A DNA stretch of 64,000 nucleotides, taken from NCBI RefSeq assembly GCF_008831285.2, contig NC_045146.1, forward strand, positions 23,577,703 through 23,641,702, given 5' to 3'. Positions within the stretch are counted from its first letter, which is position 1; the number at the start of each line of letters is the position of its first letter. The notes beneath the pieces are model-generated. The model did no database searches. It was given only the letters and a program-made list of their open reading frames with translations, and was not told the origin of the DNA. The stretch comes from Nymphaea colorata. Lineage: Eukaryota; Streptophyta; Magnoliopsida; Nymphaeales; Nymphaeaceae. Positions 21,701 through 62,103 of this stretch are shown in pieces. Both the position numbers and the translations under genes were made by a program.

Positions 21701-22894
21701 TTTTTCAGTTCAAGTTGGTATTCCAATGTGATTTTTTTAATGTTACATTAACAGTTATTTGCTTATTTGTTGAAATCTCGTTGTGAAACATTAAGACTTC
21801 CAGTCTCCATATTGTTTAATTTGAACATTATCTTGTCAGTTGAATGTCTTGTCCTAGTTATTACTGTAGTTGGAGAAATTTTGTTTATTCTGCCTTCTTT
21901 TTTTCTTGGTTCTATGTTCTCAGGACCGATAAATGGGCAGAGACTGAACTTGGCACCAAATGGGGAGACAAGTGGGAAGATAAATTTTTTGCTGGCATTG
22001 GTGCAAGGCAAGGAGAGACATGGCATGTGTCACCTAGTGGTGATCGTAAGTTTGTTAATTTGTTCATTAGCTTGGTGTTTAGTTTATGCCTCTAGCATAT
22101 ATTGTTTTTAATGCGGCAATATGGAGATTGGTTCGTGAATTTATGGTCAACAAATTCTTTTCCTCCCTGTAATCAGGGTTCATTGGTTGACTTGAAGGGT
22201 CACTCATGCTTGTTAGCCGCAAATAAATGTCTCAGCTAAATGAATGCAGACTCTCAGTAAGATTTGTTTCAGTGGAATAAAAAAATCGCTAGGCCTCACT
22301 CTGGATTTGGTTTGTTTACACTTTAATGGATGTGGGCAGGATGTTTCTCTCCTTTTTTTCGGTTTGAGTCCACAGGATGCCTGGGTGTAAATTTTTGCTG
22401 GCATTGGTGCAAAGCAAGGAGAGACATGGCATGTCTCACCTAGTGGTGATCGTAAGTTTGTTAATTTGTTCATTAGCTTAGTGTTTAGTTTATGCCTCTA
22501 GCATATATTGTTTTAAGTGCGGCAATATGAAGGTTGGTGCGTGAATTTATGGTCAACATTTTTTTTCCTCCCTGTAATTAGGGTTCACTGGTTGACTCGA
22601 AGGGTCACTCATGCTTGTTAGCCACAAGTAAATGTCTCAGCTAAATGAGTGCAGACTCTCAGTAAGATTTGTTTTAGTGAAATAAAAAAATCGCTAGGCC
22701 TCACCCTGGATTTGGTTTGTTTACACTTTAATGAATGTCGGCAGGATGTTTCTCTCTTTTTCTTTCAGTTTGAGTCCACAGGATGCCTGGGTGTTGGTTC
22801 CAATGCTAATACAGGTGCCCAATTTCCAAAAAAACCTAGCTTGGTATATAAAAGCAGATAGCCAGATAACTAACTAAATCTATATATCTATACA

Positions 22895-32900: not shown

Positions 32901-35900
32901 GATAGGTGATTTTGCACATCACAATTAGATCTATAAAGCATGCATCAGTTAGCCAATGAAACTCACAACATCTTTAGTCCATCCATTGTGAATACGTGCA
33001 CTTTCATGCAATTCATGAACACCATCACAGCCTTGGTTGATAGAGCTGCTGCATATCCTCTTTCCTGATTCCTCTTTACTTAGACAATTATGAATTTATT
33101 GCCCATCCATAAACCTGTCTATTACCAGATAGAGCCTTTTCACAGCCAGAAAATTCATTGTCTGTTGTGGTGGAGATGGATGGCGATAAGAATTCTCAGC
33201 CTGTTCCACTAAATTAGATGTTAAATTTAGAATATGTTTTCCTGGAAATAAGTTCTTGAGTATTGAGACCATTCATGTATTGGATATTAAAGTCTAAAAA
33301 GCTGATGAGCTTTGGTGTAAAGATTTCAATTTGGACAGAATTCATTGCACAGATGTCTAAATCTTTCATCAGTATTTTCTTGCATATCTCTGCAGCCCTT
33401 TGCAACATACTGAGTCTGGTTATTGCTATTTGCTACCAAGGTCTATAAATGGTTCTTCAAATACTAGGGTTAATGAATGTCATGGAGAGAGCAAGCAACA
33501 CATAGAGGTGAAATTAGATGTGCTGTAAACAGTTTTTTGTGCTTAAGAGTCAAGGTGATGAATCTGAATGATCCTTACGGAAAGGGAGATCAAGGAACTT
33601 CCATGCAAAACTGATATGGTGGTTGCTGAGAGAAGTAATAGGCTTATTTGTTTGTCAGAGGAGATGAATGTTAGCAACATGATCTAGGCTAAGAGATGCC
33701 AAAATTCCTAGTTTGTTTCTTTATATTTGCTCAGACCCTAACTTTGCTGCTTGTGTAAGATGTAGTTTGTTCACTGGCTTGTTTAAGTTACTGTGATGAA
33801 CTTGTTCCGATATGGCCAACCATTAGACTGAGACACCTCACCAAATATACCTCCATCTTCTGCTATTTCAAAGAATCAAGTGGCCTTAACTTCACTACCC
33901 AAACCAAGTACCCATCAAGGTACTGAAAAACCCAGAGTCACAATGTACCTACATGGTTTGGCGGATCCCAACAAGCCCTCTAGCAGTTTCGTTCGACAAA
34001 AGGCTAAGGAACCAAGAACCCCCTCATAAGTCCCTCAAAGATTCCTTACTGTAATAGATGGTATCACCTTATCAGTCTTCATCCAATTTAGAGGCTGCAT
34101 AGTGCTGGAGCAAGAGGCTGTGTTACATCTGTATGAGATTGACTATGCAGGGAAATTTTCTTATGTGTACTAACACACATCCACTTACATACTTTTCAAG
34201 TTAAGACTTAGAACTTTAATTGGCAGTGGTTCTGTTCAGGCGTACCTGATAAGTACTGAACTTCATTTGAGACAGGCTGTAAAAGTGTAAGACATATAGA
34301 TATAGGCATAGGGGAGACGTGTACAAAACTATACATGTTTTCTGACATATTCTTTGGTCATGGAAGCACCCATACGCAGTTGAGGTCAGTATCTCAGCGC
34401 CCTAGAATACCAAAAGAATGGTGAATATAGAAATCTTATAGCACCATTATTGGATCGGCATCTGGGTTTTATCTACCAAGTCAGGTGCTTGACTTCACCG
34501 TATGATCTTTGCAGGCTGCCCCTTGCTTTGCCTCTTTTTTTTTCCACTGTGATCATAAGGATTTTTTTCAATTAATTCAAATGAATCCTATGCAAACTGC
34601 CTTTCTTTTTCTACGTAATTGTTCCCAAAAAGTTTCTTGAATTAATTTTAACAAATGCACATATTAGTGTTTTGACAGTTTCGTTTGATTACCTCTTCTG
34701 GAAAACTGAAGATTTTATTCCATTTTGTTATCCTCATAAATGCAGATGTTTTCTTTTGTATAACAATATGTTTTATTGTTAAGCAGTGCTCTAAGAAGCT
34801 ATTTAGGTAAGAGATTCTTGATGTGCTCTTGTTCTTGCTATAACCTTGGAATTAATAAAATATTGACTGAAAGGGATTGAATTTTGTTATGCCTTTTAAA
34901 TTACCCTTTTTTGCCCCTCATTGTATGTTAGCTGCTAATGCGTTGGATAATTACTTAGCAACATTCAGTTATTTTTTTTGGCTTTATCATTTTTGTAGTC
35001 ATTTCACTTGTGCACATTTCTTCATGTTTGGCGTTCTTATTTGTCATGTGAAATTGCATGTTGGACATGCAGGAGCTGAAGTCAATACCCAACCAAACAG
35101 ATATTTAATGATTGCAACCAGTGGAGGGTTAAATCAGCAGAGAACTGGTGTATGTTTTCTTGCCAATTTTTCTATTGTGCTTGACCTTACACTGATTCCT
35201 AGTTTGAACATTTCTAATTATGTGGAGATTTTCAAATTCCAAACATGGTTGCAAACTTTGGGAGTTAAATAGTGGCTTGCATGAGTTGTCTCATATCAAA
35301 TGAGTCAGAAAAACAAATTAACTTGTTTAAAGTGAGATAGGCAAGGTATTGTCTTGGCCCAAGTCATATGAATTTTTCGGGGACTTGTCTTCATTCCTTT
35401 CCTTTTTTCATAATAATGAAACACTCATGTGCTTTTTGAATGTTTTAGCTTATCAAGTATATTGTTTACCTTTTTATGAAATTAAATAGAAACAGTGATT
35501 TACGTTGGTCAGCAGGTTAGACTATAGCGAATCTGGTATTGGAGTCCCAAATATGTAAATTATGGTTTCAAATGCTTACTATCTTGAATTTTGATGATAG
35601 TTTCACTGACATTTACGCAAAAAAGTACATTGCATTATGTAATGTAACATAACCATGAGGAACAATACTTACTTTCTGGGGTGTAACCGTGCCATGTTGA
35701 GTGTACTTAAGATATGCTTCTGTATCATAAGTTACATGCAATGCTAAGTGTTTCTTGTTCTACAAAATGACAAAAAAATCCTTTTTGTTTTTGGAACCTA
35801 AAGTTACATGACTTTCTTAAGGCTGAATATTAAGTTCATCATGAAAGACATACTCACACAATTAAAGTAATTCAAAAAATTTCATGTGTTCATGATTTTC

Positions 35901-38900
35901 TATGTAAGAGTTTATGTTTGTCCTGTTTAAGCTTTATGGCCATTAAGTTATTTCAACTTTCAAGACTCCAAGAAGGAAGTCATACAAAATGAGAACTTAT
36001 TTATTTTGATTCCCATTTAAGTACGAGAGTAATTTAAATAGTCAATTTTAATTATTTCTAATAAATTATGCATGTAAAGTGCTTGCTATTTTGTTATTTT
36101 TATGCAATTCCTGTTTCTTCACAGGTTTTTCTCCTATTTTCTTGGGATCTTGTTTTCTTTTCGTATTTGTTCTGTTTTTAATTTTTCTGTTAAAAATTTG
36201 AAGACCTTGCCATCTCTACAACGAAATGCATTAACATATATGACAAATAAATTTCACTATGAAGTATGAACTGAGGAGATGGAGTGCCAATGCTTTTGTT
36301 TTTCAACCTGTAAGGAGATTATAAAAAAATTGAGCTGTGTACTTTGTTCATATGTGTGGGGTATATGTCAAGGTGGAGACATTCTTAAAATAGTTTCTGC
36401 GCATGTTCAGCAATACATACATACATACACACACAATACATACATATATACATATGTACATATATATATACACACACACACAGACATACACAGGCATATA
36501 TGCAAAAACTTATCTTTTGTCTTCATTCATGTGTTCAGACTTCAGAGTGACCTAAGGAGTAATGCCCTATCTCCTTTCGGGGCTCGATTTCGTGAGTCCA
36601 TACTTCTACTACGTTCAGATGGTTCATAGCCTTACTGTAACAATTATTCCATATTATCACTGCTGTGGGGAAAAGGCATCAAAGCTTATGATAACTCACT
36701 TCACTTTGGCTTTATTCATGAGCAACTTTGAATCATCATATTGATCGTTTGTTTGAGGATCGCAACTTCAAGTGCTTAAGGACTAAGGTCACGTCGCATC
36801 AGAGCAAGAACAGCTTAAGCATCAAACCAAAACTAATGCTATTCAAGATGTTATTAATCTCTATTTCCTGGAGCTACATCCAGTCTTATGTCCTCACGTG
36901 CTAATTGCCTATGAACTGTTTAAAGTTGCTGTGGACATTGGTATATAATAAGTGAAATAAGGTGCCAACATGAACTGATTGCTATTGTTTCACTTCATAA
37001 ATGGAATTTGAAATATCTATCTGCAATACAATAGTGCTGGTCCACTGTGACAATACTATCAGCATCCGTTGATGTTAAGTCATACTAAAGATATTAATCT
37101 GCAGATAACTGATGCTGTTGTTGCTGCTCGAATTCTTAATGCTACTCTTGTGGTTCCTAAGCTGGACCAAAAGTCATTCTGGAAGGATGCTAGGTTTGTC
37201 TTCACCTTTATTGTCTATGGAGTCTGGATTAGCTAATTTGCCACTGTTTCAATTTGAGGAATAAAGGAATAAACTAATACCTGTTATTCCTTTCAATTTT
37301 TCAGCAATTTCAGCGACATATTTGATGTTGATTGGTTTATATCTTACCTTGCAAAAGATGTTACAATCATCAAACAGCTCCCCAAGAAAATCAGAAGGTC
37401 CAAGGGGAATCCATATACAATGCGTGTTCCGAGAAAATGCACACCGCGATGTTATCAGAGCCGTGTGTTGCCTGTGCTTCTGAAAAAACATGTAAACTTT
37501 CTTCTTAATTATTTACTTTAGATTGCTGATGCTGTGTCCACTTGTAATTCAATCATTCCTCCACTAATATGATAACACTGATATGAAGGGTTTTTGGTCT
37601 TTATCTGTGCACATTCTCCCTTGCAGTCATTTTACAATGCTTGTTTTTCAATCATTTTTAGAAGGTTTTTGTTTGCAGGAAGATCCCTTTTTCTTTTATA
37701 TCATTGTGAATTCTGATGACTTTAGAGCCTCGTGTCAAACTTGCTTAATTGTTCATTTTGTACATTTTGGTTTATTATGGTTACTAGTGGCTGCAGTTAG
37801 TTATTGCTAATGCAAACACCTTCCCCCACCCAAAAAAAAGCAAAGGGTTCTTTTTGGACATTGCATGCTGACTTTTGCTTTTTTGCTTAATACAGGTAGT
37901 TGAGCTCACCAAGTTTGATTTCAGGCTTGCAAATAAATTAGATACGGATCTGCAAAAGTTGAGATGTAGAGCCAATTACCATGGATTGCGGTTCCCAAAG
38001 TCCATAACCTGGATGGGGCAGAGACTAGTCCACAGAATGAAGGAGAAAAGTGGCCATTTTGTTGCTCTTCATCTCAGGTAAATATCTAGTCATGTGAAGT
38101 TTTCAACTTTTGTTGGTTGTCAAGGACAGGGAGGTCTTCCAATGCGATGTCTGTAACTAATTTTCTGGTAGAAGATATGGTTGATGATAGTGTTCCTAAA
38201 AAACACTTGATTAATGTCCTAAATTGTAACCCATGAAAATGACAGGTTTGAGCCAGACATGCTTGCATTTTCAGGATGCGACTATGGTGGCGGTGAAAAA
38301 GAAAAAAGAGAACTTGGTGCAATACGCAAAAGGTGGAAAACTTTACATGTAAGCTCACAAACTTGATGTGATAAATAGTGTGAGGAGCTTCTCTTGTTTT
38401 AAGTTGTTTGAGATGTACATTTGCAGAAGAACAACCCTGAGAAGGAAAGACGGCATGGAAAGTGTCCTTTGACTCCCGAAGAAGTGGGTCTGATGCTGAG
38501 GGCATTGGGTTTTGGCAGGGATGTATTTCTCTATGTGGCATCCGGGGAAGTATATGGTGGAGAAGAGACATTAGCCCCACTTAAAAAGCTCTTTCCAAAT
38601 TTTTACTCAAAGGAATCTTTAGCCACGAAAGAGGAATTGGCACCTTTCTCTTCATTTTCATCTCGAATGGCTGCACTTGATTACATTGTCTGCGATGAAA
38701 GTGATGTGTTTGTGACAAATAACAATGGCAACATGGCGAAGATGCTGGCTGGACGAAGGTATGGTTGTGATGGTGAAGATAATTGCAGTGTTGTAATTGC
38801 TTTATCTTTTGGTTCATCACCTCTTATTTCTTTTGTTGGTTCTGATGTTTTAGGAGGTATTTTGGACACAAACGCACGATAAGACCAAATGGGAAAAAGC

Positions 38901-41197: not shown

Positions 41198-41428
41198 ATG
41201 GCTCACTTCGCCCAGCACTTCATCTTCAGGCCTCTGACTGTTAATCGCCATCCCTGCTTCTGGTCTTCATCTTCTTCTTCCGAATTTGTTTGCTTCCGTA
41301 GGTTGAAATACTGGAGGGGTTTGGGAATACCACAGAAGGACGGTAGGATACGGTTGGTGGCCCGGGCGGAAGCTACTCCTAATGAGTCGTCACCAAAAGA
41401 TACCAATCCTCCCAATGGGAACATGGTA

Positions 41429-41486
<58 letters not shown>

Positions 41487-44400
41487 CGCATTCATGGTTA
41501 AAAGATGGGCTTTGTAGTGGACGCAGCCTCAAGTTCGCTTGATTCTTATGTGATTGTTTGCTGAACGATTAGTGGTTAGATGGGTGTGAGTCATAAACTA
41601 CGTTTGCTGAACGATTCTTGGACTATCTATCAGCCAGGTATGGTTTTTGGGAGGTGCCATGGTAAAAGATGTCTAGATTAATTTTCTCTTTGTACTTTCT
41701 TTTCTTTTTCTCTTTTTATGTCATTGCGAGGAGAAAATTCCAAACATCTCTGAGAAGTTATGGATGTGGAGGTAGGAACAGTTTGTTGAATGAATTGGTA
41801 TTCATTTCTATATGTCAGGTATCGATTGGACCTGAAGGAAGCTTGAAGACGATTCTCGGAAGAATGGACGTTAGGCGCTGCATTGTGTGTGTATGAGACC
41901 AAGATAAAAAAAAAAACTTGACATTCTTTGAGCGAAATGCAAGTCGGGTTACAGGCGTTTAGTCAAAAGCACTACATAGGGCCTCTGCAGCAGGTGAACA
42001 GAGAGGTCTGTAAAAGGCTTGTAGGTGCATAGGTAGACAAGTTAACTTAGTTGGGTCCTGAAAAAGGATGAAAAGTTCAGATTAGCTTAAAAATTTAAAA
42101 TAACCAAAGACGCATAATAAGTTGTTGATTATGTGAATCCTGATGTTAAGCAACGAGGCTCAACATTCCCGCAAAAATAAGCAAGACAAGTTCCGCTTGT
42201 TAGAGCAGCACGGATTTTGCGCAGTCGTTTGGTCGTGCGCACCTGAGTGGAACTTGAGGCTGACTTACTCAAAGAGGTTTTTTTTTGCTATGATTTCTAT
42301 CTTATTACAAAATGGGAGTTTGACAAATTGGCAACTATCCTCTTACAATTTGGGAGTTTATATTGGAAGAGAGGACATCTCACTGGCTCATTGGCATGAG
42401 AGGTGGTTGTTGTTGGGACACGTAGGTAAGAGTCTATATGGAAACCTAACAAGCTTGAAACGTAACCTTGTCCCTCTATATTGAAGGTTGTGAGTTTTTC
42501 TTTCATACTTTAATTGTTTGTATAATCTTTCTGATTGTTCACATCCACAATATAAATTGCTGAAAAATTATTCTGTTTGATTTCTTCTTGCACTTGTACT
42601 TTTACAGTTTACACTCGTTCCTTTTCATTGTGTTTAGCTTGTCATCATAAGACAGATTCTCTGCACCTGCACACTGGATATTCCCACATAATATGCTCCA
42701 CTTGTTTGATATTTAGAGACCTAAAGTTTTCCTTTCCGTTTCTTCAATCAGCCAAAGAGCCGAAGGGATATCCTGTTGGAATATGTTAAAAACGTGCAGC
42801 CAGAATTTATGGAGTTATTTGCAAAAAGAGCATCTCGTCAGGTAACATTCTTTACCTTCTAGATCTGGGTTTATTTACTCATTTTCTCTTGTAAGGATGC
42901 AAGTTTTGAGCCACTTGGGCTTTGGCTGCTAGAAAAACCGTCAGAATTTAAATCTCATGGCCACCATCCTCTGCACAAGCCAAACCAAACATAGGACTTG
43001 GGAGCAGGGGTTCTAGGCCATGGAGTTTTACACCGTTCATTTGTGACTAATTCATTTCCCAGGTGTGGTTTCCTCATGTTAGAAACAAAGAATGGACAAA
43101 TTATTCAAGTTCAACCTTATCAATCAGCCATACAGGCTCATCAAAATTCTTATATAAATAGTTACATGCTTAATGCAGTGTTGTATTATTTCTGCTGGTA
43201 TTAAGAAAATTTAGTTGTCTGCTGAAGGTTGTTGAGGCAATGCGCCAGACAGTGACAAATATGATTGGAAGTCTCCCTCCTCAGTTTTTTGCTGTCACTG
43301 TGACCACTGTAAATATGCTAAACTCTTTTTGGTTTATGCGTTTTCTTTGTTATTTCTATGATGCTAAGCGTATGATTTCAAATCAGGTTGCAGAAAATCT
43401 TGCACAGCTCATGTACAGTGTTATGATGACGGGATACATGTTCAGGAATGCACAGTACCGTTTGGAACTCCAGCAGAGTCTAGAGCAAGTTGCCCTTCCA
43501 GAAGTTCAGTCAAAGAAGGTGGGCATGCTTTCAAAATGTACTTGACTTCTTGTGGGGGACTTTGTACACCAACTGTTTGTAATTTGTACAACATGGTTGC
43601 TTCTGTTACATGAGGATTTAAACTCTAATCAAGTTGACATGTGCACGTTAAATGTATTTTTGTTATGGATGACTTTGAATTTTGGGTGATGACGTTCTGT
43701 GTTGGGGACAGAGCCTTTCCATCATTCCATGTATGCATTTGCAAGATTTACTTTGGAAAGATGAGCAGATTATCAAGATTTTTTGGTTGATGATAATTGC
43801 AGGCTTGACAATGCTTATTTTATTTCCTTTTGGGCTGTTAGAATATGTTGTTATGGGAACCGGGTCCATATCTGGACCCGGTTCTATGGGGCGCGGGTAC
43901 CGAGGCGGGCTCGGTACCCTAGGCGGCTTCTCCTCTCTCCCTCTTTATATTGTCACTTGTGTTTAGTGTTGAAGCAGTGAAATATAATTTTCTCTCTCCT
44001 AGGGTTGCGGTGAGCCCCTAGGTCAGAGCCTCCCCGTGGTTTTTCACCTCTTTCTGAGGTTTTCCACGTAGATTGTGTGTTTGTTCTCCACTCTCTCTCT
44101 CTGTGGTTCGTGTTTCTACATGGTATCAGAGCCAGGTTAGTTGGAGAAGCGTTTTTTCCGAGGATCGTCAAGTTTTTTCGTTGCCCGACGCCGTTGAAGT
44201 TCCGGCGCCGCTGCTGCCCGTTTGACGTCGCCCTGCTCTGCCGCCGCTGTCCTTTGTTCCGCCGCCGCCGTCCTCTGTTCCGGCGCCGCTGCTGCACTTG
44301 TGACGTCGCCCTGTTCCGCCGCCGCCGTCCTCTGTTCCGCCGTCCTCTGTTGCGCCTCCGCGGTCCTCCGTTCGGCCCGTTCTTTGTTTCTGCCACCGTG

Positions 44401-47400
44401 GGTGGCCTCTGTGTTGCGCCGTCGCCTGCTTTCCGTTGCCGCTGCCTCATTCCCGCCGCCGTCGCCGCTGCCTCCTTCCCGTCGCCGTTGCCTCATTCCC
44501 GCTGCTGTGCCTCTTGTTGCTGTGTGCTTGTTTGTGATGGCAGAAGCGATGGGGACTCAAAAAGATGCTGTTCTTGACACGGGCAGCGCCTCCAAGACTG
44601 AGAACGTGCCGCTCCAGGTCACCTCCATCCGTCTGACCAAGGACAATTACCTATCTTGGTCTGCCGCTCTCGAGATTGGGATTACTAGCCGTGGGCGTCT
44701 CTCTTACATCACTGGCGACAAACCTGCGCCCATCAAATCTGATCCTCAATGGGCAACGTGGGCGTTGGAGGACAGCCAAGTGAAGGTGTGGATTATCAGC
44801 TCCGTATCATCCGATATCCAGCCCCTCATTCTGCGGAAGCCGACCTCTTTTGATATGTGGACTGTGCTTGCAAAGATGTATGGTCGCAAGAAGAGACATC
44901 TGCGTACCTATCAGATTAAACGCAGTATTTACTCTCTGACACAGGGTGATTTGTCTGTTGCTGCCTTCTATGCTGCCCTGAAGACCAAATGGGAGGAGCT
45001 AGATTATCATGTGACTGATGAGTGGACGTGCGGTTCAGATCATTCCCTCTACTGGGAAAAGGAATGGATGGACCGTACGTTTCTGTTTCTGGGAGGCCTG
45101 CGGGATGAATTCGAGTCTATTCGTAGCCAGATTCTTAATGGTGATGAGATTCCGGGGATAGAGGAAGTATATGCTCGTGTTGAGTCTGAAGAACAACGTC
45201 GCCAGGTGATGCATCTTGACACCGGTCATGGCCCTTCTGCCTTTGTCAGCCGTGCCTCAGGGACTGGGCAGCGTCCTGCCCGACATTGCACTCATTGCCA
45301 CAAGTTGGGGCATTCGGTGGATTTCTGTTGGGATCTTCATCCCGAGAAGAGACTGGTCAGAGGTCGTCCTCCCTCTGGCAAGCGTAGCCCTACTGTGTCT
45401 GATTCCAGTCAGAGCAATTCTTCTAGTGGTGCAAAGTCCAAGTTGTCTCCTGCTCAACTCAAGGAGCTACAGGCGTACATCAGCCGTCTATCTACTACCC
45501 CTGAGGAGTCCTCCACGTCTGAAGGGGCTCAGCTAGCCCAAGCCCTCATTGCCTCGATTGATCAAGGTAACCCTTCTCTTGGTGATTGGATTGTTGATAG
45601 TGGAGCCACTCACCACATGACAGGGGACTCTAAACTCTTTCAAGAATATCAACTTTCCTCTGGCAAGCAACGCGTGTCTATGGCAGATGGGTCTTCTATC
45701 TCTGTGGCTGGGAAAGGGAGCTTGTCCCTGCTGAACAAATACCATCTCCACAATGCCCTGCATGTTCCAAATATTCCTGTGAACTTACTCTCTGTCAGCA
45801 GTATTACTAAAGAATTAAACTGTAATCTAATTTTCTCTGCTGATCATTGTTCCCTGCAGGACTTGGTGACGGGGAAGAAGATTGGGATTGGTTCGGTTAC
45901 TGATGGGCTCTACAGGCTGCCGGTACAAGTTGCTTCAGCGTTGATTTCTGCCACGAGTGGTCACTTGTCTGGTGTGAATGATAGATCTACTGTTCTGCGA
46001 TGGCACGAGCGTCTTGGACATCTCCCCTTCCAGTTAATAAAGAAGTTGTTTCCTCATTTGTTTGCTTCTGTCTCCATTGACTCCTTCGCTTGTGAAGTGT
46101 GTCAATTGGCTAAACATGTCAGGGCTTCATACCCTATTTCTTTGAATAAATCCACCCATCCGTTTGCCTTAGTTCATTCCGATGTTTGGGGTCCTTCTGG
46201 AGTACCCACGTGTGGTGGTTGTCACTATTTTTTGACGCTTATTGATGATTACTCTAGATGTACGTTCGTGTACTTGTTGCGAGAACGTAGTGAGGTTCCA
46301 GCAGTTGTGAAAAACTTTGTTGCCTTTGTTGAGACTCAATTCCATACTACTGTTCAAGCTTTCCGTACGGATAATGCAAGAGAATATGTCTCCCAATCCC
46401 TTGATGAATTCTTGAAAGGAAAGGGTATTGTTCATGAAACCTCTTGTAGTTATACCCCTCCTCAGAATGGTATAGCTGAACGTAAAAATCGTCATCTATT
46501 GAATGTTACCCGGGCCATTATGTTCCAACGTCATGTCCCGAAGCGGTATTGGGGTGATGCACTTCTCACTAGTGCACATCTCATTAACCGTATGCCTACT
46601 AGAGTGCTGGATGGTCAGTCTCCTTATTCTACCCTGTGGCCTACTCAGAATCCGTGGCCTCTTACTCCTCGTGTCTTTGGGTGCAGTTGTTTTATGCATA
46701 ATCATAGCCCTACTCTCAAAAAACTTGATCCCCGATCTATTAAAGGAGTTTTCTTGGGGTACTCTTCCACTCAGAAGGGGTATAAATGTGTGGATCCCAC
46801 TACTTCCAAAGTATATGTTTCGAGGGATGTCACATTTCATGAACATGAGTCGTATTTTCCGGTGAATACTCTTCAGGGGGAGTGTCTTGGGAACAAAGGG
46901 GAAGAGTATTCCTCTAATCAGCTGATTCAATTTATGGAGTTTTTGGATTACAAGGTTAGTCCCAGTGTGATTGACACGGTCACGGTCAGTAATGAGAAGG
47001 GCAGTCATATGGAAGGGGTCACGGTGGATGCTCAGCCCACTGTTGCCCGGGATCACTTGTTTGGCAAGGTTTATGTCAGAAAGGAGAAAGCTACTGTGGA
47101 AGATGTTGGTGATGAGGATAGAACCAATCCTAATCTTGTGATCTCCCCGGATGACCCAAGTCCATCGAATGAAGAGCTCCCTATTGCTTTGCGCAAAGGC
47201 ACCAGGTCATGTACTTCTCACCCTATTCAGAGATTTGTTTCTTATGCTAAGCTCAGTACAAATTACAAATGTTTTATCACAACCTTATCCAAAGTTGTTA
47301 TTCCCAGGTCGGTGGATGATGCTAAGGATGATCCCAAGTGGTTACATGCTATGACGGAGGAGATGGGTGCGTTAGCTAAGAACAAAACATGGGAAGTTGT

Positions 47401-50400
47401 TGATATCCCTAAAGGGACACACTTAGTTGGCTCTAAGTGGGTTTACAACGTGAAGTACAAACCTGATGGCACTGTAGATCGATATAAAGCTCGTCTGGTT
47501 GCAAAGGGGTTCAGCCAGAAGTATGGGATCGACTATCTTGAGACCTTTGCCCCTGTTGCAAAGTTGAAGACTGTGAGGGTTATTCTTGCTCTTGCTGTGC
47601 ACAAGAAGTGGCGCATGGACCAGCTTGATGTTAAAAATGCGTTCTTGAACGGCCATCTGGAGGAAGAAGTCTATATGAGCATGCCTCCCGGGTATGTTCA
47701 AGAGGGAAAATGTTGTCACCTCAAGAAAGCTTTGTATGGCTTGAAGCAGTCGCCTAGAGCCTGGTTTGAGAGACTAAGGATCGTTATGAAGTCTACTGGG
47801 TACAAGCAAGGAAATGGAGATCATACCCTATTCATAAAGCAGAGAGATGGTCTGGTGAGTCTTCTCCTTGTCTACGTTGATGATATGATTGTCACGGGCA
47901 GTGATGAAGAAGAAAACAGAAAGATGAAAGAGAGATTAGCTAAAGAATTCGACCTCAAGGATCTGGGTAAGCTGAGATACTTTTTGGGGATAGAAATTGC
48001 TCGATCAGAGACAGGGCTGGTTATGAATCAAAGGAAGTACACTCTTGACTTATTAAAGGAGACAGGTAAACTTGGTTGTAGGCCCTATCTTACTCCTATG
48101 GAGTCGGGAACTAAGATAAGTATCAAGACGGGCACCACTCTGGATGAGGAAGGAAAAGGGCGATATCAGAGGCTAGTCGGTAAGCTTATCTATCTTACTC
48201 TAACTCGCCCTGATATCACGTATGCGGTAAATGTGCTAAGTCAATTTATGCATGCTCCAACGGATTGTCATTGGAAGAGTGCAGAACGAGTGTTGGGGTA
48301 TCTAAAGAATGACCCAGGAAAAGGGCTGCTGTATACTCGACAAGACAAACTTACTATTGAGGGCTACTCAGATGCAGATTGGGCAGGTTGCACTGACACA
48401 AGGAGGTCTACTACAGGGTATTGTATCTTTCTTGGAGGTAACCTAGTTGTTTGGAGAAGTAAGAGGCAAGAAGTATGTTCGAGGTCGAGTGCTGAGGCTG
48501 AGTACAGGGCTGTTGCAATGGGGGTTACAGAGATGCTGTGGCTGAAGATTCTTTTGACTGATATTGGTGTGGAACTGGGAGATAAAATGAAGATGTACTG
48601 TGACAACAAGTCTGCGATTAATCTTGCCAATAATCCAGTTCTACATGACAGGACCAAACATGTGGAGATTGACCGTCATTTTATCCGGGAACGCATTGAC
48701 TCAAAGGAGCTGATTCTGCCATATATGAAGTCTGAAGATCAAGTTGCAGACGTCCTAACTAAAGGGCTTTGTACTTCTTCATTTGAAAAGAATGTTAGCA
48801 AGCTTGGCATGTTTGACATGTATGCCAAGCTTGAGGGGGAGTGTTAGAATATGTTGTTATGGGAACCGGGTCCATATCTGGACCCGGTTCTATGGGGCGC
48901 GGGTACCGAGGCAGGCTCGGTACCCTAGGCGGCTTCTCCTCTCTCCCTCTTTATATTGTCACTTGTGTTTAGTGTTGAAGCAGTGAAATATAATTTTCTC
49001 TCTCCTAGGGTTGCGGTGAGCCCCTAGGTCAGAGCCTCCCCGTGGTTTTTCACCTCTTTCTGAGGTTTTCCACGTAGATTGTGTGTTTGTTCTCCACTCT
49101 CTCTCTCTGTGGTTCGTGTTTCTACATGGGCAAATGTATTGTTTGAGGCTTTCCTGCTTATTAGTTATCACATTAGAATTCCTATGTAGCACGCTAGCAA
49201 CCTTTGCTCTAGAGGTGAAGTATCCTTTTACTCTCTGTTTCTACTTTTAAGAACCTCCTGATAGTTTAGCTACTATATATTTAGGTTCTTGGCCCTCTGT
49301 CTCCTTGTGGACATGGTGTTTGGTGCTTGGCTTTTAGCAGGAGTTTGTTTATCTCCAATATGCGATTCATCTCATCTAAAAAATTGAGTTCATATTCGAT
49401 ATGAGATATTGCGAATCTTGCAAAATCTCTTTAAATGTTTCTCTGAATTTTTTGGTTGTATCATCTAATCCCTCTCAAGAACATATTCTTATGCATTGTG
49501 AAACTACCATCTGGAGCCCAAAAACGTGGCTTATGGTTCTTGTCAGTCAGTCACCTTCAACCATGAGTAAGAATTTCTGCCAAATTGATCTGACTAGACT
49601 AGCAGGTGGTGTCCTTGAGGCAGCAGTTCCAAAACTTCTGCTGACTTCCTTGTCCCTGCGTGAAAGTGTCTCTTTCTTTGCCGCCACTTAACTATGAACA
49701 TGTTAACAACCAAAAGAGCTTATTAATCATTGTCTGTTGGCTTTGTGGTAACTGCCTGGTTTTTATCTCTGTCAAAATAGTTTGTTGGCTTTGCTTCCAA
49801 CCACGTTGCTATGTTGAAAGAATTATAAAAGAAAAAACGAATATTTTGTATATCATTCTGTGATAATGGAATTCCGTTTATTTTTCTTCCAAATATACAG
49901 GATGCACCAGATTATGCACCTGGTACACAGAAAAATGTGACTGGTGAAGTCATCAGGTGGAACAATGTTTCTGGGCCAGAGAGAATGGATGCTGTAAAGT
50001 ACATTGAACTGCTAGAAGCTGAAATCGAGGAGCTATCACGCCAAGTAGAACGCAAATCCACAAATGGGGAGAATGAACTTTTGGCATATCTCAAATCTCT
50101 TCAACCTCAAAACTTGCAGGTATCTTTCAAAAATTTATGAGTATAAACTATCTGATTCTTTCTTCCTAGATTAACTGAAAAGTATACATGAAAATTATTC
50201 TTTGTAAGTTGGTGCTAGTAACCGGATATGGGATATGAATCGGGTCCCATTAGGGCTGATCCAACAATGCTTATAAATAGGTCGAAGGGCCCGAATTAAG
50301 GATCATCACTAGTATTAATCACCTGGCCCTCTGGTGAAGGAGAACCCTAATCGGGGATTAGGGTCAGCATGGGTGAATTTAGAGGCCTTATCGGGTGCCT

Positions 50401-53400
50401 TGCTCTTGTAACCAGCTGTGTTAGCCAGAGGTTAACAGTTGGTTAGTCTCTTACACCCCATTATATAACCCCCCAATGTTAATTATATAACAATGGACAA
50501 AAATAAAATGTTATTTGTACAAAAATCCACAAGAATGTGCTTGTTAATATCATGTCCTTCCTTTCCAACTATGTAAAGCACCCACAGAAGTGTTACTAAG
50601 TATTTTGCACGAGAACTCTATCAAAGATCACTGGACAGGTACTGGCTAGAGATAGTATGTGTATAGAGTGTGTGTGCAGTTCTGTTTAATGATTAATCTT
50701 TTGTACCATCTTATTATATTCCTACTTTTTGTCATTGAGATTGGTGTATTTATTCATTCTGCTAGTGACTGATTTCGTTTGCTGGGTAAGCTGAAGATAC
50801 TAGATATCAGAAGCTAAAATTTCAGATTTGCATTTGGTTTTATTAACAAACCAAGTCAGAGGAACTGAAATTTGGCTTGCGTCAGTCCATTACTGTCTGC
50901 CTTGTGACGTGATGGAGGACTATGGAAATCTTCCTGGAGCCACACCAAGTTTATAAACAGCACAGGCAAACCTTTAACAGCCAACAGTTGTAGCTTATAT
51001 AAGTGATACCGTAGCTGGAAAACTCTCTGCATTCTATCTATCTATTTAAATTACTACACTTGTATGTTCAGTGCAAATATGAAGAGCTGAAAAAGTGACT
51101 GTGTTCAATCCTAGTCTCAATACATAATGCTACTTCCTTTGATCAAAGGTCTTTGGTTTCATAAATCAATTTATAATCCTTTAGTTCCTTTGTTCAAGGG
51201 TCTTTGGTTTTATACATCAATTTGCTGAATGGGTCTTTTGCATTTCACTAGTTTCAAAGAATTGGGGGCCCTGGAGTATTTTAGCCAATGTTGTAAAAAG
51301 CGTATCATAAGCCGTATCGGTCTGGCTTTAAGATACGCTGTATCGTAAAATATCGTAACGTATCGTAACCGTATCGTTTTTTTTTAAATAATTATAAAAA
51401 TATAAAAAATTCTCAAAAAATAATAAAAAATCAATAAAAATTACCGTTTTCGTACCTCTATCGTGTTGTATCGTAACCGTATCGTAACGTATCGTGCCGT
51501 ATCATAACTGTATCGTTGCCGTATTGTAACCGTATCGTACGATACGGTGCCCGCATCGTAAATGTACGATACAGAGGGTGTATTGTATTGTATTTTACGT
51601 ACGATACGGCTCCGTATCGTACGATACGTACAACACTAATTTTAGCATAGACTAAGAAATTATAGTTTAAAAGTCTGAAGTTGGGGTTTTGAAAAATGTT
51701 GGTCTGACGACCACCAATTGTTCAAGTTCTGCATCAAATAGATCAGTTCCGTTCCATGAACCCTTTCATGTAGGAGGTGACTTGATGAGCTTAGCTGGAA
51801 TGGCTCGATGCCTACAAGAACCTGATATAGGCTTGGGGACAAAGGGCACAGTTATCGTGGCTCATTGAGTGGGTTGGACCACTTTTTGCATAAATTGTCA
51901 CGAGTAGTGTACACTCATATAAGATGGTTTAGATCCGTGGTGTGATGTGGGCTTCTACTAGAAGTATTTGCTTCCATTGCACTGTAATATAAAGGATGGT
52001 TCTTGGTGTCATTCACGTTTGGCAGCAGCCTCATTTTGCCACTCACCGCATCTTTATGGAGATTATAAAGACAGCAAAATCTTGTGTTGCTTATGCCCCT
52101 TAACTTGCATGATATTTTTTGTGGTTAACAAAGGTGAACTATTCAGTACTGATTCTAATGATTCTTTCCATTTCTCATATCAAAATTCTTTTTAACTTGT
52201 TCTTTCGTTACACTTCTACTTTTGGATTATTAGACTATCTTTTCTTTTCTTATAAAGTTGCTATATTGGTGCACTCTCTACTCTTATTGCATGCTTGGGT
52301 GATCCTAGAGCCAGATTAGAAACCTGGTTTTAGCATCAAAACTAGTTTCAAGGCAAGCATGGTTTGATGCCAAAGTCAAATTTCTAATCCGTTTCTAGTT
52401 TTAGTTGTGAACTGGCTATCATCTTGTGCCATTATGCTGATTTGTTATGATACTTATGCTTTCTGTGGCATACATCTGGAGTACTTGATGTATGTTACTG
52501 AATTCTTATACATGCCATATGGCTGCCTCTTATATGACTAGCTTGTGCAGGAACTAGCCAGTGGTGCTGGTGAGGATGTTGTATTTGCAATGAATACATT
52601 CATAAAGCGTCTTCTTGGGGCTTCAGATCCTGAACAAATGAAGGTATGGAATCAGTGTGCCACATTCCTTGCACTTCAGCTGAAAGACACTCCGTCTTTC
52701 TATTCTTCAATTGAAAACGATTGCCTCTCATTAATTTCATAATTGTCATTGTGTGTGAAACATAACTAAGCATATTTGTGCTAGTAGGCGTTTATTGTAG
52801 ATCTGCTATGCCTGTGTTTGTCTGTTTCTTAGAAGGTAATTAGGCTTTTCAAATGTGGAGAGAGAGATGATTTCCCATAATTTGGATCCTTATTGTTTCA
52901 CAATACTTTCATGTCTACAGTTAACATAATCGTGATATGATGCTTATGGGAGTTGGTGGTGAAATTGTTGACCAAAAAGCTTGGATTATTAGCAGGCCTC
53001 CTGTACATAGGAAGCATATAGCCATGGCTGCAGGCTTCTTGTCTGTAAAACTCAATTATTGTCATAGAGGCTAGATACTTTTGCTGTTGGATACAAGTCT
53101 TGATCTTGGCATGGCTGTGATTTTTGAGTTTCCATAATAGCCAAATAGCCAGATTAGGTTTATTAATGAGTTTCTGTTGCAGAGGTAGGTGCATGCGGAT
53201 GTCCAGGCAGGAACTAATTTCGCATTTCCTGTCATTCTGCAGGCAGCAGCGACACAGACTTCAGCTCCGGAGCTTGCAAATTTGCTCTACTGGCTGATGG
53301 TTGTGGGTTACAGCATCCGGAATATTGAGGTGCGGTTTGATATGGAGCGGGTTCTTGGCACTACCCCAAAACTTGCTGAGCTACCGCCTGGTGAGAGCCT

Positions 53401-53404
53401 CTAG
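41198..53404 (+). CDS. Plastid DUF760 family protein, eight exons, Copia insertion in intron 5
   Basis: Exons: 41198-41425, 41819-41890, 42752-42841, 43228-43308, 43387-43518, 49901-50119, 52551-52643 and 53243-53404; 1077 bases, 358 residues, every junction phase 0. Residues 1 to about 55 are a transit-type region. Family sequence follows: GPEGSLKTILGRMDVRRC, YVKNVQPEFMELFAKRAS, VVEAMRQTVTNMIGSLPPQF, VAENLAQLMYSVMMTGYMFR, VIRWNNVSGPERMDAVKYIE, a coiled-coil-like KYIELLEAEIEELSRQVER, EDVVFAMNTFIKRLLG and the end VLGTTPKLAELPPGESL. DUF760 proteins are plastid proteins without an established activity known to me. Residues 162-189 and 316-343 are clearly related (LAxLxYxxMxxGYxxRN), showing an internal duplication. 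Intron 5 (6.4 kb) is mostly the Copia element; intron 6 carries further transposon DNA. The exons themselves are undamaged. Confidence 0.93.
41431..41478. repeat. (TC)n microsatellite just after the DUF760 exon 1 donor
   Basis: About 24 TC units begin a few bases after the GT at 41426-41427, followed by a short TG run. The donor itself (ATG|GTACTT) lacks the usual purine-rich positions +3 to +5. Confidence 0.95.
43831..43835 (+). other. Target-site duplication, left copy (TGGGC)
   Basis: TGGGC directly precedes the 5' LTR and recurs at 49127-49131 directly after the 3' LTR. Five bases is the typical length for Ty1/Copia integration. Confidence 0.95.
43857..43919 (+). repeat. Two adjacent perfect hairpins in the LTR U3 region
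   Basis: Hairpin 1: GAACCGGGTCC (43857-43867) pairs with GGACCCGGTTC (43874-43884) around a six-base loop. Hairpin 2: GGGTACCGAG (43895-43904) pairs with CTCGGTACCC (43910-43919) around a five-base loop. Both recur in the 3' LTR at +5006. The only LTR difference falls in the second loop. Role unknown; they lie just upstream of the TATA-like motif. Confidence 0.9.
43944..43950 (+). promoter_or_regulatory. TATA-like motif of the 5' LTR
   Basis: TTTATAT lies in the first half of the LTR, a plausible position for the element's promoter before the R region. Not experimentally placed. Confidence 0.5.
44121..44133 (+). other. Primer-binding site for initiator tRNA-Met
   Basis: TGGTATCAGAGCC follows the LTR with no spacer. 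This is the standard plant Copia complement to the 3' end of initiator methionine tRNA. Confidence 0.96.
44199..44350 (+). repeat. 78-bp imperfect repeat in the Copia leader
   Basis: GTTCCGGCGCCGCTGCTGC occurs at 44199 and again at 44277, each followed by GACGTCGCCCTG and GCCGCC-rich sequence with GTCCTCTGTTCCG. The period is divisible by three, and the frame of the downstream polyprotein stays open through the repeat, but no ATG precedes 44537 in that frame. Confidence 0.75.
44537..48847 (+). CDS. Copia gag-pol polyprotein (1436 residues, intact)
   Basis: The ATG at 44537 is the first in-frame start after the leader. Domains in order: a gag region opening VTSIRLTKDNYLSW; CCHC zinc knuckle from about 251 (CTHCHKLGHSVDFC); aspartic protease DSG at 354; GAG-pre-integrase HERLGH...CEVC; integrase core with catalytic D549, D612 and E648 in DD35E spacing and the motif TPPQNGIAERKN; Copia RT from about 950 with DVKNAFLNGHLEEEVYM and YVDD at 1113-1116; RNase H from D1279 (SDADWAGC, SSAEAEYRA, CDNKSAI, HVEIDRHF). 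No interruption is seen. The stop TAG lies inside the first six bases of the 3' LTR, so the frame reads through the polypurine tract. Protein functions are the standard Copia replication cycle. Confidence 0.98.
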   Translation: MAEAMGTQKDAVLDTGSASKTENVPLQVTSIRLTKDNYLSWSAALEIGITSRGRLSYITGDKPAPIKSDPQWATWALEDSQVKVWIISSVSSDIQPLILRKPTSFDMWTVLAKMYGRKKRHLRTYQIKRSIYSLTQGDLSVAAFYAALKTKWEELDYHVTDEWTCGSDHSLYWEKEWMDRTFLFLGGLRDEFESIRSQILNGDEIPGIEEVYARVESEEQRRQVMHLDTGHGPSAFVSRASGTGQRPARHCTHCHKLGHSVDFCWDLHPEKRLVRGRPPSGKRSPTVSDSSQSNSSSGAKSKLSPAQLKELQAYISRLSTTPEESSTSEGAQLAQALIASIDQGNPSLGDWIVDSGATHHMTGDSKLFQEYQLSSGKQRVSMADGSSISVAGKGSLSLLNKYHLHNALHVPNIPVNLLSVSSITKELNCNLIFSADHCSLQDLVTGKKIGIGSVTDGLYRLPVQVASALISATSGHLSGVNDRSTVLRWHERLGHLPFQLIKKLFPHLFASVSIDSFACEVCQLAKHVRASYPISLNKSTHPFALVHSDVWGPSGVPTCGGCHYFLTLIDDYSRCTFVYLLRERSEVPAVVKNFVAFVETQFHTTVQAFRTDNAREYVSQSLDEFLKGKGIVHETSCSYTPPQNGIAERKNRHLLNVTRAIMFQRHVPKRYWGDALLTSAHLINRMPTRVLDGQSPYSTLWPTQNPWPLTPRVFGCSCFMHNHSPTLKKLDPRSIKGVFLGYSSTQKGYKCVDPTTSKVYVSRDVTFHEHESYFPVNTLQGECLGNKGEEYSSNQLIQFMEFLDYKVSPSVIDTVTVSNEKGSHMEGVTVDAQPTVARDHLFGKVYVRKEKATVEDVGDEDRTNPNLVISPDDPSPSNEELPIALRKGTRSCTSHPIQRFVSYAKLSTNYKCFITTLSKVVIPRSVDDAKDDPKWLHAMTEEMGALAKNKTWEVVDIPKGTHLVGSKWVYNVKYKPDGTVDRYKARLVAKGFSQKYGIDYLETFAPVAKLKTVRVILALAVHKKWRMDQLDVKNAFLNGHLEEEVYMSMPPGYVQEGKCCHLKKALYGLKQSPRAWFERLRIVMKSTGYKQGNGDHTLFIKQRDGLVSLLLVYVDDMIVTGSDEEENRKMKERLAKEFDLKDLGKLRYFLGIEIARSETGLVMNQRKYTLDLLKETGKLGCRPYLTPMESGTKISIKTGTTLDEEGKGRYQRLVGKLIYLTLTRPDITYAVNVLSQFMHAPTDCHWKSAERVLGYLKNDPGKGLLYTRQDKLTIEGYSDADWAGCTDTRRSTTGYCIFLGGNLVVWRSKRQEVCSRSSAEAEYRAVAMGVTEMLWLKILLTDIGVELGDKMKMYCDNKSAINLANNPVLHDRTKHVEIDRHFIRERIDSKELILPYMKSEDQVADVLTKGLCTSSFEKNVSKLGMFDMYAKLEGEC
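48832..48841 (+). other. Polypurine tract
   Basis: TGAGGGGGAG directly precedes the 3' LTR and is in the correct position to prime plus-strand DNA. It also encodes the final residues of the polyprotein (LEGE). Confidence 0.93.
48842..49126 (+). repeat. 3' LTR of the Copia element
   Basis: 285 bases matching the 5' LTR at 284 positions. The difference is A at 48913 against G at 43907. It is followed by the right TGGGC target copy. Confidence 0.98.
49127..49131 (+). other. Target-site duplication, right copy (TGGGC)
   Basis: A perfect match to the five bases before the 5' LTR. Confidence 0.95.
50203..50455 (+). mobile_element. LTR-like relic in DUF760 intron 6
   Basis: The stretch starts TGTAAG and ends CTTACA, an LTR-type short inverted terminal repeat. 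It contains a TATA box (TTATAAATAG near 50270) and is GC-richer than the intron around it. No second copy, coding sequence or target-site duplication was found, so a solo LTR or small non-autonomous element is a suggestion only. Confidence 0.35.
51286..51638. mobile_element. hAT-like MITE (353 bp) in DUF760 intron 6
   Basis: Flanked by a perfect 8-bp direct repeat ATTTTAGC (51278-51285 and 51639-51646). The ends are CAATGTTG and, inverted, TAGTGTTG, matching the hAT terminal style. The interior has no coding capacity and consists of many CGTATCG/CGATACG units, several arranged as palindromes (for example CCGTATCGTACGATACGG). An 8-bp duplication with these ends supports the hAT superfamily. 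Confidence 0.82.
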
Positions 53405-55672: not shown

Positions 55673-55963
55673 AAGGTAGCGTTTCGATGTACACTAAAAA
55701 AAAATTAGTTTTGCGAAAACTAGTTTGGAATCGATTTTGAAAAACTGGTTCGTGTGTTTGACTACAGGATCAAAACACTTTTCCTTTTTTTTTTCTTTTT
55801 TGTGAATAACCTGAGGTGCCATGCTAATTCATTTCCTTATAAAAACAATTTTTGCCAAAACTCATTTTTGGTGTCATCCAAACTTCTTGGAAACGGCATT
55901 TTGAAAGTAAAACCATTTTTTACTTCAAAAAATGGTTTGGGGCTGTCATCTAAACGCCTTCTT
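55673..55963. mobile_element. Possible MITE (PIF/Harbinger style)
   Basis: The left end AAGGTAGCGTTTCGATG and the inverted right end AAGAAGGCGTTTAGATG are related. The interior has AAAACTAGTTTTG-type imperfect palindromes and no coding sequence. A three-base target duplication was not found, so this is weak. Confidence 0.35.
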
Positions 55964-56690: not shown

Positions 56691-56793
56691 CAGCTTGCTT
56701 TGTACTCCACCGTCGTCACTCTTCTGCAACTATTACGCGCTCTTTTAGAGCGTGACAGAGGGAGAAGGAGGGGTCATCTTTTCCCCTACCACC

Positions 56794-59529
56794 ATGAATC
56801 CCACCCCTTTTCTGCTCTTCCTCCTGCTGCTCGGAACCTCCACAATCAGCAGCGTGGCCGCGTTGGGGTTTAAATGCAGCGGCACCGCTACGAAATGCCA
56901 AGCCTTGGTGGGATACACCCCAAAGAATGCGTCGACTCTCTCCGCCATCGCCTCCCTCTTCGGCCTCAAGTCCCACTCCTCCCTCCTGGGGCCCAACGCC
57001 CTCCCGCTCAACACCTCCAAGCACCACAAGATCACCGCCGGCCAGGCGGTCCGTGTCCCCATCAGCTGCAGCTGCGGCAATGGCAGGGGCTACTCCGACC
57101 GTTCTCCGGTGTACGTCGTGAAGCACGGGGATTTCCTCGACCATATTGCGAGGGACGTGTTCTCCGAGCTCCTGAATTACAGCTCCATCGCGACTGTCAA
57201 TAACATCCCCGACCCCAACCAGATTCAAGGGGGGCAAAAGCTGTGGATCCCGCTCCCTTGCAGCTGCGACCAAGGGGAAACCTTTCCGATTGAACACTAC
57301 GCCCACGTTGTGGCGAAGGGCACGGACCTGACTGGAATCGCCGCCCAGTTCGGGACTACCCAGGCAAAGCTCATGACTCTCAACGACATCTCCGACGCCA
57401 CCACCCTCCAGGCAGGCCAGGTGCTCGACGTGCCCCTCCGAGGTGAGCCCTCTCCTGATCGCCCCTCTCTCCCTTCTTCACGCAGGCGTGCGTATGGTTC
57501 AGTCATTAGTCTGAAACAGGAACGCGATTTTTCGTGAACGAATTTACGATCTTGTCGTTTCGGGCTCCTGCCTTGGTAAGGTTTTTGGGTTGGAGAGCCA
57601 AATTCCCAAAATAGCTTAGTCATTTAGGGCTTGCGCTGGGATGGTAGTAGAACGATTCTCTTTAGAACATATTCTTATATAGTATCATGTTTGTTGAGAA
57701 TGATTTGATACATTTTTTGAGCAACTTTATGTTGATGAGGTTGGCGCATCGTGGTGGTCAACTTTGTTTTGTTACGGTGGGTGGTCGCTTTTAGTTGAAG
57801 CAAATCGTTCGACTATGGATCTTAATCGAGGCAATAACAGAACTTTTTGTTCGTTTATTTCTTGCAGTTTGCTCTTCTGCAATCCAGAACACGTCGTTGG
57901 ACAGTTCTTTGGCAGTGGCTAATGGCAGCTATGCTTTTACTGCTAAGAACTGCGTCCTGTGCAAATGCAGCAGCGCCTCCTGGCAGTAAGTCCTCATCCC
58001 TTCTCCATCTCTGTTTCTTTTATGCTCTCTGCTAAAGCGACTTCAATTTCTCAGGGAATTCCCTACGGATCGCCGCCTGATTCGTTGTTATCCTTTCTTT
58101 TCTGGTGTTGCTGCAGATTAGATTGTGCGCCCAATACCTTAGGCAACTTAACCTGCCCTTCCATGGAGTGCAGCAGCACGGGCATGACCATGGGGAACCG
58201 GTCTACCGTCACCTCCTGTCAAGAAAATGTGTGCTCTTATGCTGGTTACACAAATAACAATACCATCCTGACCACCATGATCTCCCAATCAACTTGCCCT
58301 GTTTCACGTAAGTGCCTCCTTCTTCTTCTTCCTGAAGACGATAAATCTTGGACCTCTTAGTGCATTAGAGGTGATTAAGCCCTTTTCCATGAAAAAAGAT
58401 TAGGGAACCATGCATACTTGGTTGGTGGGTCAGCTGTAAAGCTTGTCGTGCTGGTTTAATCTGTTCTCTTCTTCATATGGTCGACTTCTCCAAGACATAA
58501 ATCTCCAAGTTGAATGATCTTTGAGCAACATCTGGGCAGGCAGGGCCAAAAGACCTCGGCCTCTCAAGAGACCACAGTGTTCATTGATGCCATTACAACT
58601 ACACTTGCTAAGTTCACCAACATATTAGATAAGAAACTGTAAACGCATGTTTAGATAGAGCATTTGATTGCGTCGATCTGCTTAAACAAAAGTATGTTGG
58701 TGATACCATCGTTAGTATTCGCGACGGTGGCTCTTGATATCTAGAATAAGCACGATGCTGAGCAGAAATTTAAAGGGGCGGACCAGATTAGAACTTTGAT
58801 CTTAAGAGCTGCCCTGTAGAACTTTGGATCTACCTCTATCTCTAGGTTGTTGTATAAAGCGTGGCCCAATGCGCCCCCACTTTATTTAGGTCTCACTTGG
58901 TGCTTGATTACTTCAGATTTATGAATGTGATGTGGCGTGCTTTTGTTGACATGGCAAAAGCCTTACATTAAAATTCACTGTGCTCTGATTTTTGTTTCCA
59001 ATGTTTGAACGTGATGTTCTTTTGAGCGATGTGTAGGCTGAGCTCCCACTGATGTTACTTCTTCGAGCCATGTGCTTGTAGGGGCTAAGTGGTTGTTTGC
59101 TCAGCTCGAGTTTTAAAAAATTCTCACCTGTAGTGCGTTGAAACACGTGAAAATTTTAGTATACATTTTTTGGTTTAAACATGAAGAATGTGAATGTGAA
59201 GTTTTATGCACTTGAACATGGAAAAATTATAAGTTTCGCTATTTGTGACAAAATTTGTCGTGCTGGTTTAATCTGTTCTCTTCTTCATATGTTCGAAATG
59301 ATTCATGTTTAGAAACGCATTCTAACAAGTGAAGCTAGTGAGTGGCCTTTAGTAGAAGAAGAGCCATCGCTATTTGTGACAAAATTTGTTGGATCGGTGC
59401 GATGCAGCTGCTTCGTCTCCAAGCGAGAGTTCTCCTGCAAGCGCAGTCATGGGCCGCGTAAAAGGAGCGAGATGGGGTTGGCCATTGATGTTGGGGTTGC
59501 TTGCTTCTGTACTGCTGATCCATGCATGA
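56794..59529 (+). CDS. LysM-domain GPI-anchored protein (LYM/LYP/CEBiP family), copy 1
   Basis: Exons: 56794-57442, 57868-57985, 58117-58307 and 59408-59529; 1080 bases, 359 residues, intron phases 1, 2, 1. A signal peptide (about 1-23, LLFLLLLGTSTISSVAALG) precedes three LysM-like segments: about 39-90, 106-153 (YVVKHGDFL to WIPL) and 169-215 (YAHVVAKGTDL to DVPL). They are separated by the CxC pairs CSC at 92-94 and 156-158. A Cys-rich region follows (CVLCKC, CPSMEC, VCSYAGYTN). The C-terminus has a small Ser/Ala spacer (SSPSESSPASA) and a hydrophobic tail ending ASVLLIHA, typical of GPI attachment. N-glycosylation sites include N45, N73 and N128. The family binds peptidoglycan or chitin fragments at the plasma membrane with LysM receptor kinases; which ligand applies here is not predictable. 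The closest types recalled are LYM1/LYM3 and rice LYP4/LYP6. Confidence 0.95.
58443..58479 (+). repeat. Exact 37-bp direct repeat in intron 3 of the first LysM gene (copy 1)
   Basis: The sequence from TTGTCGTGCTGG to CTTCTTCATATG recurs without change at 59255-59291, 812 bases away in the same intron. Confidence 0.95.
59236..59389 (+). repeat. Repeat mosaic before exon 4 of the first LysM gene
   Basis: Contains the second copy of the 37-bp repeat (59255-59291), overlapped at its left by the first copy (59236-59258) of a 23-bp sequence starting TCGCTATTTGTGACAAAA. The 23-bp sequence recurs exactly at 59367-59389, 18 bases before exon 4. Confidence 0.93.
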
Positions 59530-61969: not shown

Positions 61970-62103
61970 TCAGATAAAGAGAAGGAGAGAGAGAGAGATT
62001 TATTCATTTTCAGTATTAAAATTTAAACGCACAAAGCAAAGCTCTGCTCAACCAAAAATTTCTAACTCCGTCACCGCCGTCGTCGATTTCTCTGATAGAC
62101 GCC

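Follow-up and report, generated by a model that had tools for sequence, protein, structure and literature searches.

How has a nuclear gene for a DUF760 protein come to carry an intron of more than 6 kb, and what might the DNA inside that intron do to the gene's transcripts? We approached this by sequence analysis of a 64-kb stretch of the Nymphaea colorata genome (NC_045146.1, positions 23,577,703 to 23,641,702; herein the window, whose numbering is used throughout). A long terminal repeat (LTR) retrotransposon of 5,291 bp spans 43836-49126 exactly and lies in sense in the fourth intron of the DUF760 gene (Table 1). It has both ends, a target-site duplication (TSD), the domain order of its superfamily and an open frame, and the host coding sequence around it is intact. 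We are confident that this is a structurally complete Ty1/copia element that integrated recently into the intron.

The two LTRs begin with TGTTAG and end with TCTACA; their sole difference is at LTR position 72, where the 5' copy has G and the 3' copy A. The flanking sequences, ...TTTTGGGC and TGGGCAAA..., place the 5-bp TSD TGGGC outside both LTRs, and its two copies are identical. From the primer-binding site to the start of the coding frame, the leader stretch (44121-44536; 416 nt) contains no ATG and has a GC fraction of 0.64, and its CpG observed/expected ratio is 1.21 vs 0.66 in the remaining window. Two antisense frames, 43953-44450 and 44137-44496, overlie the leader and were judged by-products of its GC-rich repeats. 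A first-pass annotation of this DNA had already reported the element's coordinates, the single mismatch between its LTRs, a 1,436-codon open frame and intact host exons on both sides of a 6.4-kb intron; rechecking of the positions and counts bore out each of these points. Its description of a structurally complete Copia element, in sense and intronic in a DUF760 gene, likewise stands, and its term "autonomous" is not retained, for reasons given below with the age estimate.

The interior is occupied by a single gag-pol frame, whose TAG stop falls within the opening six bases of the 3' LTR. The frame was cut into five pieces, each scanned separately with Pfam. The order is GAG, protease region, integrase and reverse transcriptase (RT), with rve before RVT_2 as in Ty1/copia elements. 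A Copia-type GAG with a CCHC knuckle is present: the first piece matches PF14244 (E 2.4e-5) as well as PF14223, and the CCHC motif follows. The second piece also matched gag_pre-integrs, under that model's cut-off. The integrase HHCC motif occurs in the H-x4-H form; the stricter H-x3-H pattern had no match in the frame. We take the CCHC, DSG, HHCC, D-D(35)-E, YVDD and RNase H-like motifs to have the catalytic or zinc-binding roles generally ascribed to them. An LDTGS at frame residue 13 precedes GAG and was set aside as a chance occurrence. The TG...CA ends of the LTRs and the 5-bp TSD are likewise those of Ty1/copia; a TSD of this length was found in 93.4% of surveyed plant LTR elements (PMC6317226; papers are cited by PubMed Central identifier, each for the portions of its text consulted).

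The host gene could be followed on both sides of the insertion. Its exon borders were read from the sequence and are backed by the DUF760 match; the joined exons contain no internal stop, and all six introns have GT-AG borders. Without the element and one TSD copy, intron 4 would measure 1,086 bp. Pfam finds DUF760 twice in the host protein (E 8e-49). The best stretch (residues 84-165) is encoded 5' of the element, in exons 2-4; a second one is matched in the exon-7 piece (E 1.3e-9) and weakly in the exon-6 piece (E 0.16, under the cut-off). The element thus separates the exons of DUF760 domain 1 from those of domain 2. The protein, with its two DUF760 stretches, is best compared with Arabidopsis DUF760 proteins. 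Among seven of the eight Arabidopsis members, five are given a plastid location and two an unknown one, and four members were enriched with a CLPC1 trap (PMC8889267). The serine-rich N-terminus makes a candidate transit peptide. The first-pass label "plastid gene" is narrowed to a nuclear gene whose family has plastid members.

Table 1. Features of the retrotransposon and of its DUF760 host gene, in window positions
Feature	Position	Strand	Details
5' LTR	43836..44120	+	285 bp, TG...CA ends, direct repeat
3' LTR	48842..49126	+	285 bp, direct repeat; 1/285 differs from 5' LTR
TSD TGGGC, left copy	43831..43835	.	
TSD TGGGC, right copy	49127..49131	.	
U3 hairpin 1	43857..43884	+	perfect 12-bp stem, 4-nt loop, LTR position 22; 3' LTR copy from 48863
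U3 hairpin 2	43895..43919	+	perfect 10-bp stem, 5-nt loop, LTR position 60; 3' LTR copy from 48901
TATA-like box TTTATAT in LTR	43944..43950	+	putative role, function inferred
AATATA in LTR, candidate poly(A)-type element	43981..43986	+	function inferred
Primer-binding site TGGTATCAGAGC	44121..44132	+	tRNA-Met type, directly after 5' LTR
GC-rich leader	44133..44536	+	tandem repeats within 44199-44513
Gag-pol frame	44537..48847	+	single, open, 1,436 codons
GAG	44687..45001	+	PF14223, E 1.1e-9
CCHC zinc knuckle	45287..45328	+	motif
Protease-region beta-barrel domain Pol_BBD	45587..45811	+	E 3.2e-20; VDSGA at 45593
Integrase	46004..46480	+	HHCC zinc motif; rve core 46154-46459, E 2.4e-15; one D-D(35)-E, residues 549/612/648
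SH3-like domain after integrase core	46667..46855	+	PF25597, E 8.8e-28
Reverse transcriptase RVT_2, two pieces	47381..48103	+	E 1.3e-49, 3.4e-16; YVDD at 47873
RNase H-like motifs YSDAD, SSAEAEYRA, DNKSA	48365..48616	+	motif only
Polypurine tract GAGGGGGAG	48833..48841	+	adjoins 3' LTR
Host gene, seven exons	41198..53404	+	334 codons, two DUF760 stretches
Host exons	41198-41425, 42752-42841, 43228-43308, 43387-43518, 49901-50119, 52551-52643, 53243-53404	+	
Host intron 4	43519..49900	+	GTGGGC...ATACAG, 6,382 bp; contains element in sense

The near identity of the LTRs dates the insertion, and this age depends on a single substitution and on the rate per site per year that is assumed. One difference in 285 positions corresponds to 0.135 million years (My) at 1.3e-8 (95% Poisson range 0.003-0.75 My), to 0.25 My (0.006-1.4) at 7e-9 and to 1.35 My (0.03-7.5) at 1.3e-9. 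The earlier estimate of 0.1-0.2 million years therefore agrees with the point value at the fastest of these rates, and its precision is lost in the range, which is wider still at slower rates. The single change, G/A, affects a CpG in the 5' copy and is of a kind that builds up quickly in methylated DNA; if G is ancestral, this favors the younger end. The insertion may instead be older than it appears, its LTRs having been equalized by gene conversion or its host, as a long-lived plant, having a slow clock. Just one difference in 285 bp would suit such equalization, and the 95% range at 1.3e-9 reaches 7.5 My; the 1,436 codons without a stop and the identical TSD copies fit a young insertion, neither of them strongly. 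We consider the older date unlikely and retain a recent integration.

That the frame is open is poor evidence of present activity. Over 0.135 My its 4,311 bases should gain only ~7.6 substitutions, so that openness is the default expectation at the estimated age. The element could be complete and yet inactive: it may be silenced, or it may have been damaged by missense changes that an open frame would hide. Its key residues were checked by motif alone, which leaves room for such damage; the zinc knuckle, DSG, HHCC, D-D(35)-E, YVDD and RNase H-like motifs are nonetheless all present. Inactivity seems to us a serious prospect, if somewhat short of an even chance, and structural completeness is the part of the description that we keep.

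The anatomy suggests that the element arrived by the ordinary copy-and-paste cycle: a transcript from a 5' LTR would have been reverse transcribed from a tRNA-Met primer, and the product inserted at a 5-bp staggered cut made by the element's integrase. What this means for the host is argued from published cases elsewhere. Host transcripts would mostly be read through and the whole element spliced out; we judge this the predominant outcome since neither exons nor splice sites are damaged. A share of them may end at the 5' LTR or retain part of intron 4. Translation continued past the end of exon 4 would gain eight intron codons before a stop at 43543-43545; an unspliced or LTR-terminated transcript would therefore encode a protein with domain 1 only, predicted to consist of 177 host residues and 8 intron-coded ones and to lack the second DUF760 domain. 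For the present, the locus serves as a clear-cut example for annotation and possibly as a presence/absence marker; it would carry greater weight if isoforms ending in the LTR do split the two DUF760 domains.

Copia elements within introns are already known to alter host transcripts, and the present case is an ordinary, well described one. In Arabidopsis, the 5' LTR of COPIA-R7 in intron 1 of RPP7 is a site at which host transcripts terminate (PMC7529245). Both elements are intronic Copia, with the 5' LTR a poly(A) site there and a candidate one here; RPP7 differs in that RNA and H3K9me2 data are available and the effect is EDM2-dependent, and the DUF760 host is not an immune-receptor gene. The intronic transposable elements of RPP7 and PPD7 (AT3G05410) give premature polyadenylation in epigenetic mutants (PMC10241880). 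The product of PPD7 is a chloroplast protein, and a long intron of that gene likewise houses a retrotransposon; the DUF760 host, a different gene, encodes a product that is only possibly chloroplast. Premature polyadenylation is demonstrated for PPD7 and is a possibility for the gene described here (PMC10241880, PMC7529245). New insertions of ONSEN (ATCOPIA78) provide a third parallel, being full-length Copia insertions inside genes that are either spliced out whole or create new start or end sites; transposition and RNA were observed in that system (PMC12112155).

The retrotransposon might have gone further and become a regulatory part of its host gene, a switch of poly(A) choice as at RPP7. 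Its sense orientation and its position, with the exons of one DUF760 domain on either side, would suit such a role, and the intron donor, GTGGGC, looks weak against the consensus, which we count on the same side. The precedents are those of PMC7529245 and PMC10241880. The element is probably too young to show selection, and we hold a regulatory role to be very improbable.

Some observations weigh against the reading that we prefer, a structurally complete and recent insertion that is largely spliced out. The first-pass annotation had credited the element with all replication signals. Two of these call for caution: the primer site TGGTATCAGAGC shares an 11-nt match and 13 of 16 positions with what we take to be the end of plant initiator tRNA-Met and diverges from it beyond the 11 nt, and RNase H is recognized by motif only, its Pfam model having matched none of the five frame pieces. 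As to splicing, three intronic insertions among eight homozygous ones of ONSEN were spliced out whole vs seven insertions that were partially exonized (PMC12112155), and removal of the whole element therefore need not dominate here.

The one slightly unusual feature of the element is a pair of hairpins in the U3 of each LTR. Both lie upstream of the TATA-like box (43857-43919 and, in the 3' LTR, 48863-48925). The single LTR difference falls in the loop of hairpin 2, and the stems are unbroken in both LTRs. In 2,000 dinucleotide-preserving shuffles of the LTR, a perfect stem of at least 12 bp never arose and one of at least 10 bp arose once. Folding of the first 100 LTR bases gives z = -8.0 for DNA and -4.8 for RNA; none of 200 shuffles was equally stable in either case. 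The two hairpins are the ones with stems of at least 8 bp in each LTR, one weaker 7-bp inverted repeat per LTR occurring besides them. Perfect stems of at least 10 bp with loops of 3-10 nt are found at six sites in the window, four in the LTRs and one each at 51598 and 55910; long stems are rare in the window and not exclusive to the element. The site at 55910-55938, outside the element, has a perfect 12-bp stem and a 5-nt loop. The perfect 11-bp stem at 51598 belongs to a stretch of host intron 5 (51340-51720) with degenerate 10-11-bp repeats (GTATCGTAAC), possibly a small transposon.

Such hairpins are a variation on a known theme. Sirevirus LTRs carry palindromes upstream of the TATA box (PMC2829016), and in maize Copia elements hairpins are concentrated in the LTRs and associated with more small RNA (PMC10760457). 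The likeness to Sireviruses lies in GC-rich palindromes 5' of the TATA box; by reading, hairpin 1 contains a spaced CGG...CCG dyad. Unlike Sireviruses, the element has two distinct long hairpins, one each per LTR, rather than many copies of a single motif (PMC2829016), and has no extra open reading frame (ORF) after pol. Because the element is in sense and intronic, a read-through host pre-mRNA would hold four U3 hairpins, and the element's own RNA should have them at its 3' end only. Small RNAs could conceivably be made from this pre-mRNA, in which case the intron would act as a trap and silence all members of the family in trans; we give this idea hardly any credence, and the locus would gain in weight if U3 hairpins do yield small RNAs from the host transcript.

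The lineage within Copia could be narrowed in part, plant Copia groups showing little structural difference (PMC6317226). According to the same survey, Bianca is marked by two ORFs and a primer site for half-tRNA-Ile, TAR is self-priming, 74% of SIRE elements carry an extra ORF downstream of pol and 26% are without it, and other groups mostly use full tRNA-Met, with half-tRNA-Met in Osser, Bryco and part of Gymco-II. Bianca was set aside, the element having one ORF rather than two with a gap. TAR was set aside as well: the LTR contains no 8-14-nt complement of the stretch after the LTR at offsets 0-5, where TAR elements have at least 10 nt. SIRE was rejected on two counts, and this is the softest of the three rejections, since a quarter of SIRE elements also have no ORF after pol. 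The gag-pol stop in the 3' LTR leaves no room for such an ORF; and in place of the high-copy CGG-CCG palindrome (PMC2829016) there are two different single hairpins per LTR. Ale, Alesia, Angela, Ikeros, Ivana and Tork are the candidates that remain.

Relatives were sought within the window and beyond it. None of six element pieces (LTR, leader, gag, protease-integrase, RT and RNase H) matched the remainder of the window at E 1e-3. In viral contigs, patterns from the RT, the integrase and a short RT piece matched 1, 5 and 11 stretches, respectively, none encoding a relative; a 16-base pattern from the junction of LTR and primer site matched 26 stretches, none of which matched the integrase or RT piece (tblastn, E 0.01), and these were taken as chance. 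The RT piece had no match among PDB sequences at E 0.001. Intact LTR retrotransposons are otherwise abundant, with 2,593,685 of them recorded in 300 plant genomes (PMC8282616).

Elsewhere, the window gave no Rfam match at the gathering threshold and no tRNA by ARAGORN. For other genes, Pfam scans covered the full length of 24 of the 79 stop-to-stop frames of at least 95 codons outside the element. On the upstream side of the DUF760 gene, exon-like frames that match GDP-fucose protein O-fucosyltransferase lie at 34871-35269 (E 7.1e-4, under the cut-off) and 38412-38882 (E 7e-33), and a minus-strand frame at 1973-2731 matches DUF7796 (E 3e-39). At 21981-22794 there is a tandem duplication of a 405-bp unit in two copies with 93% matches. 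Downstream, two plus-strand LysM frames of the NFP/LYK kind (56749-57537 and 62020-62781), ~4.5 kb apart, are possibly tandem duplicates.

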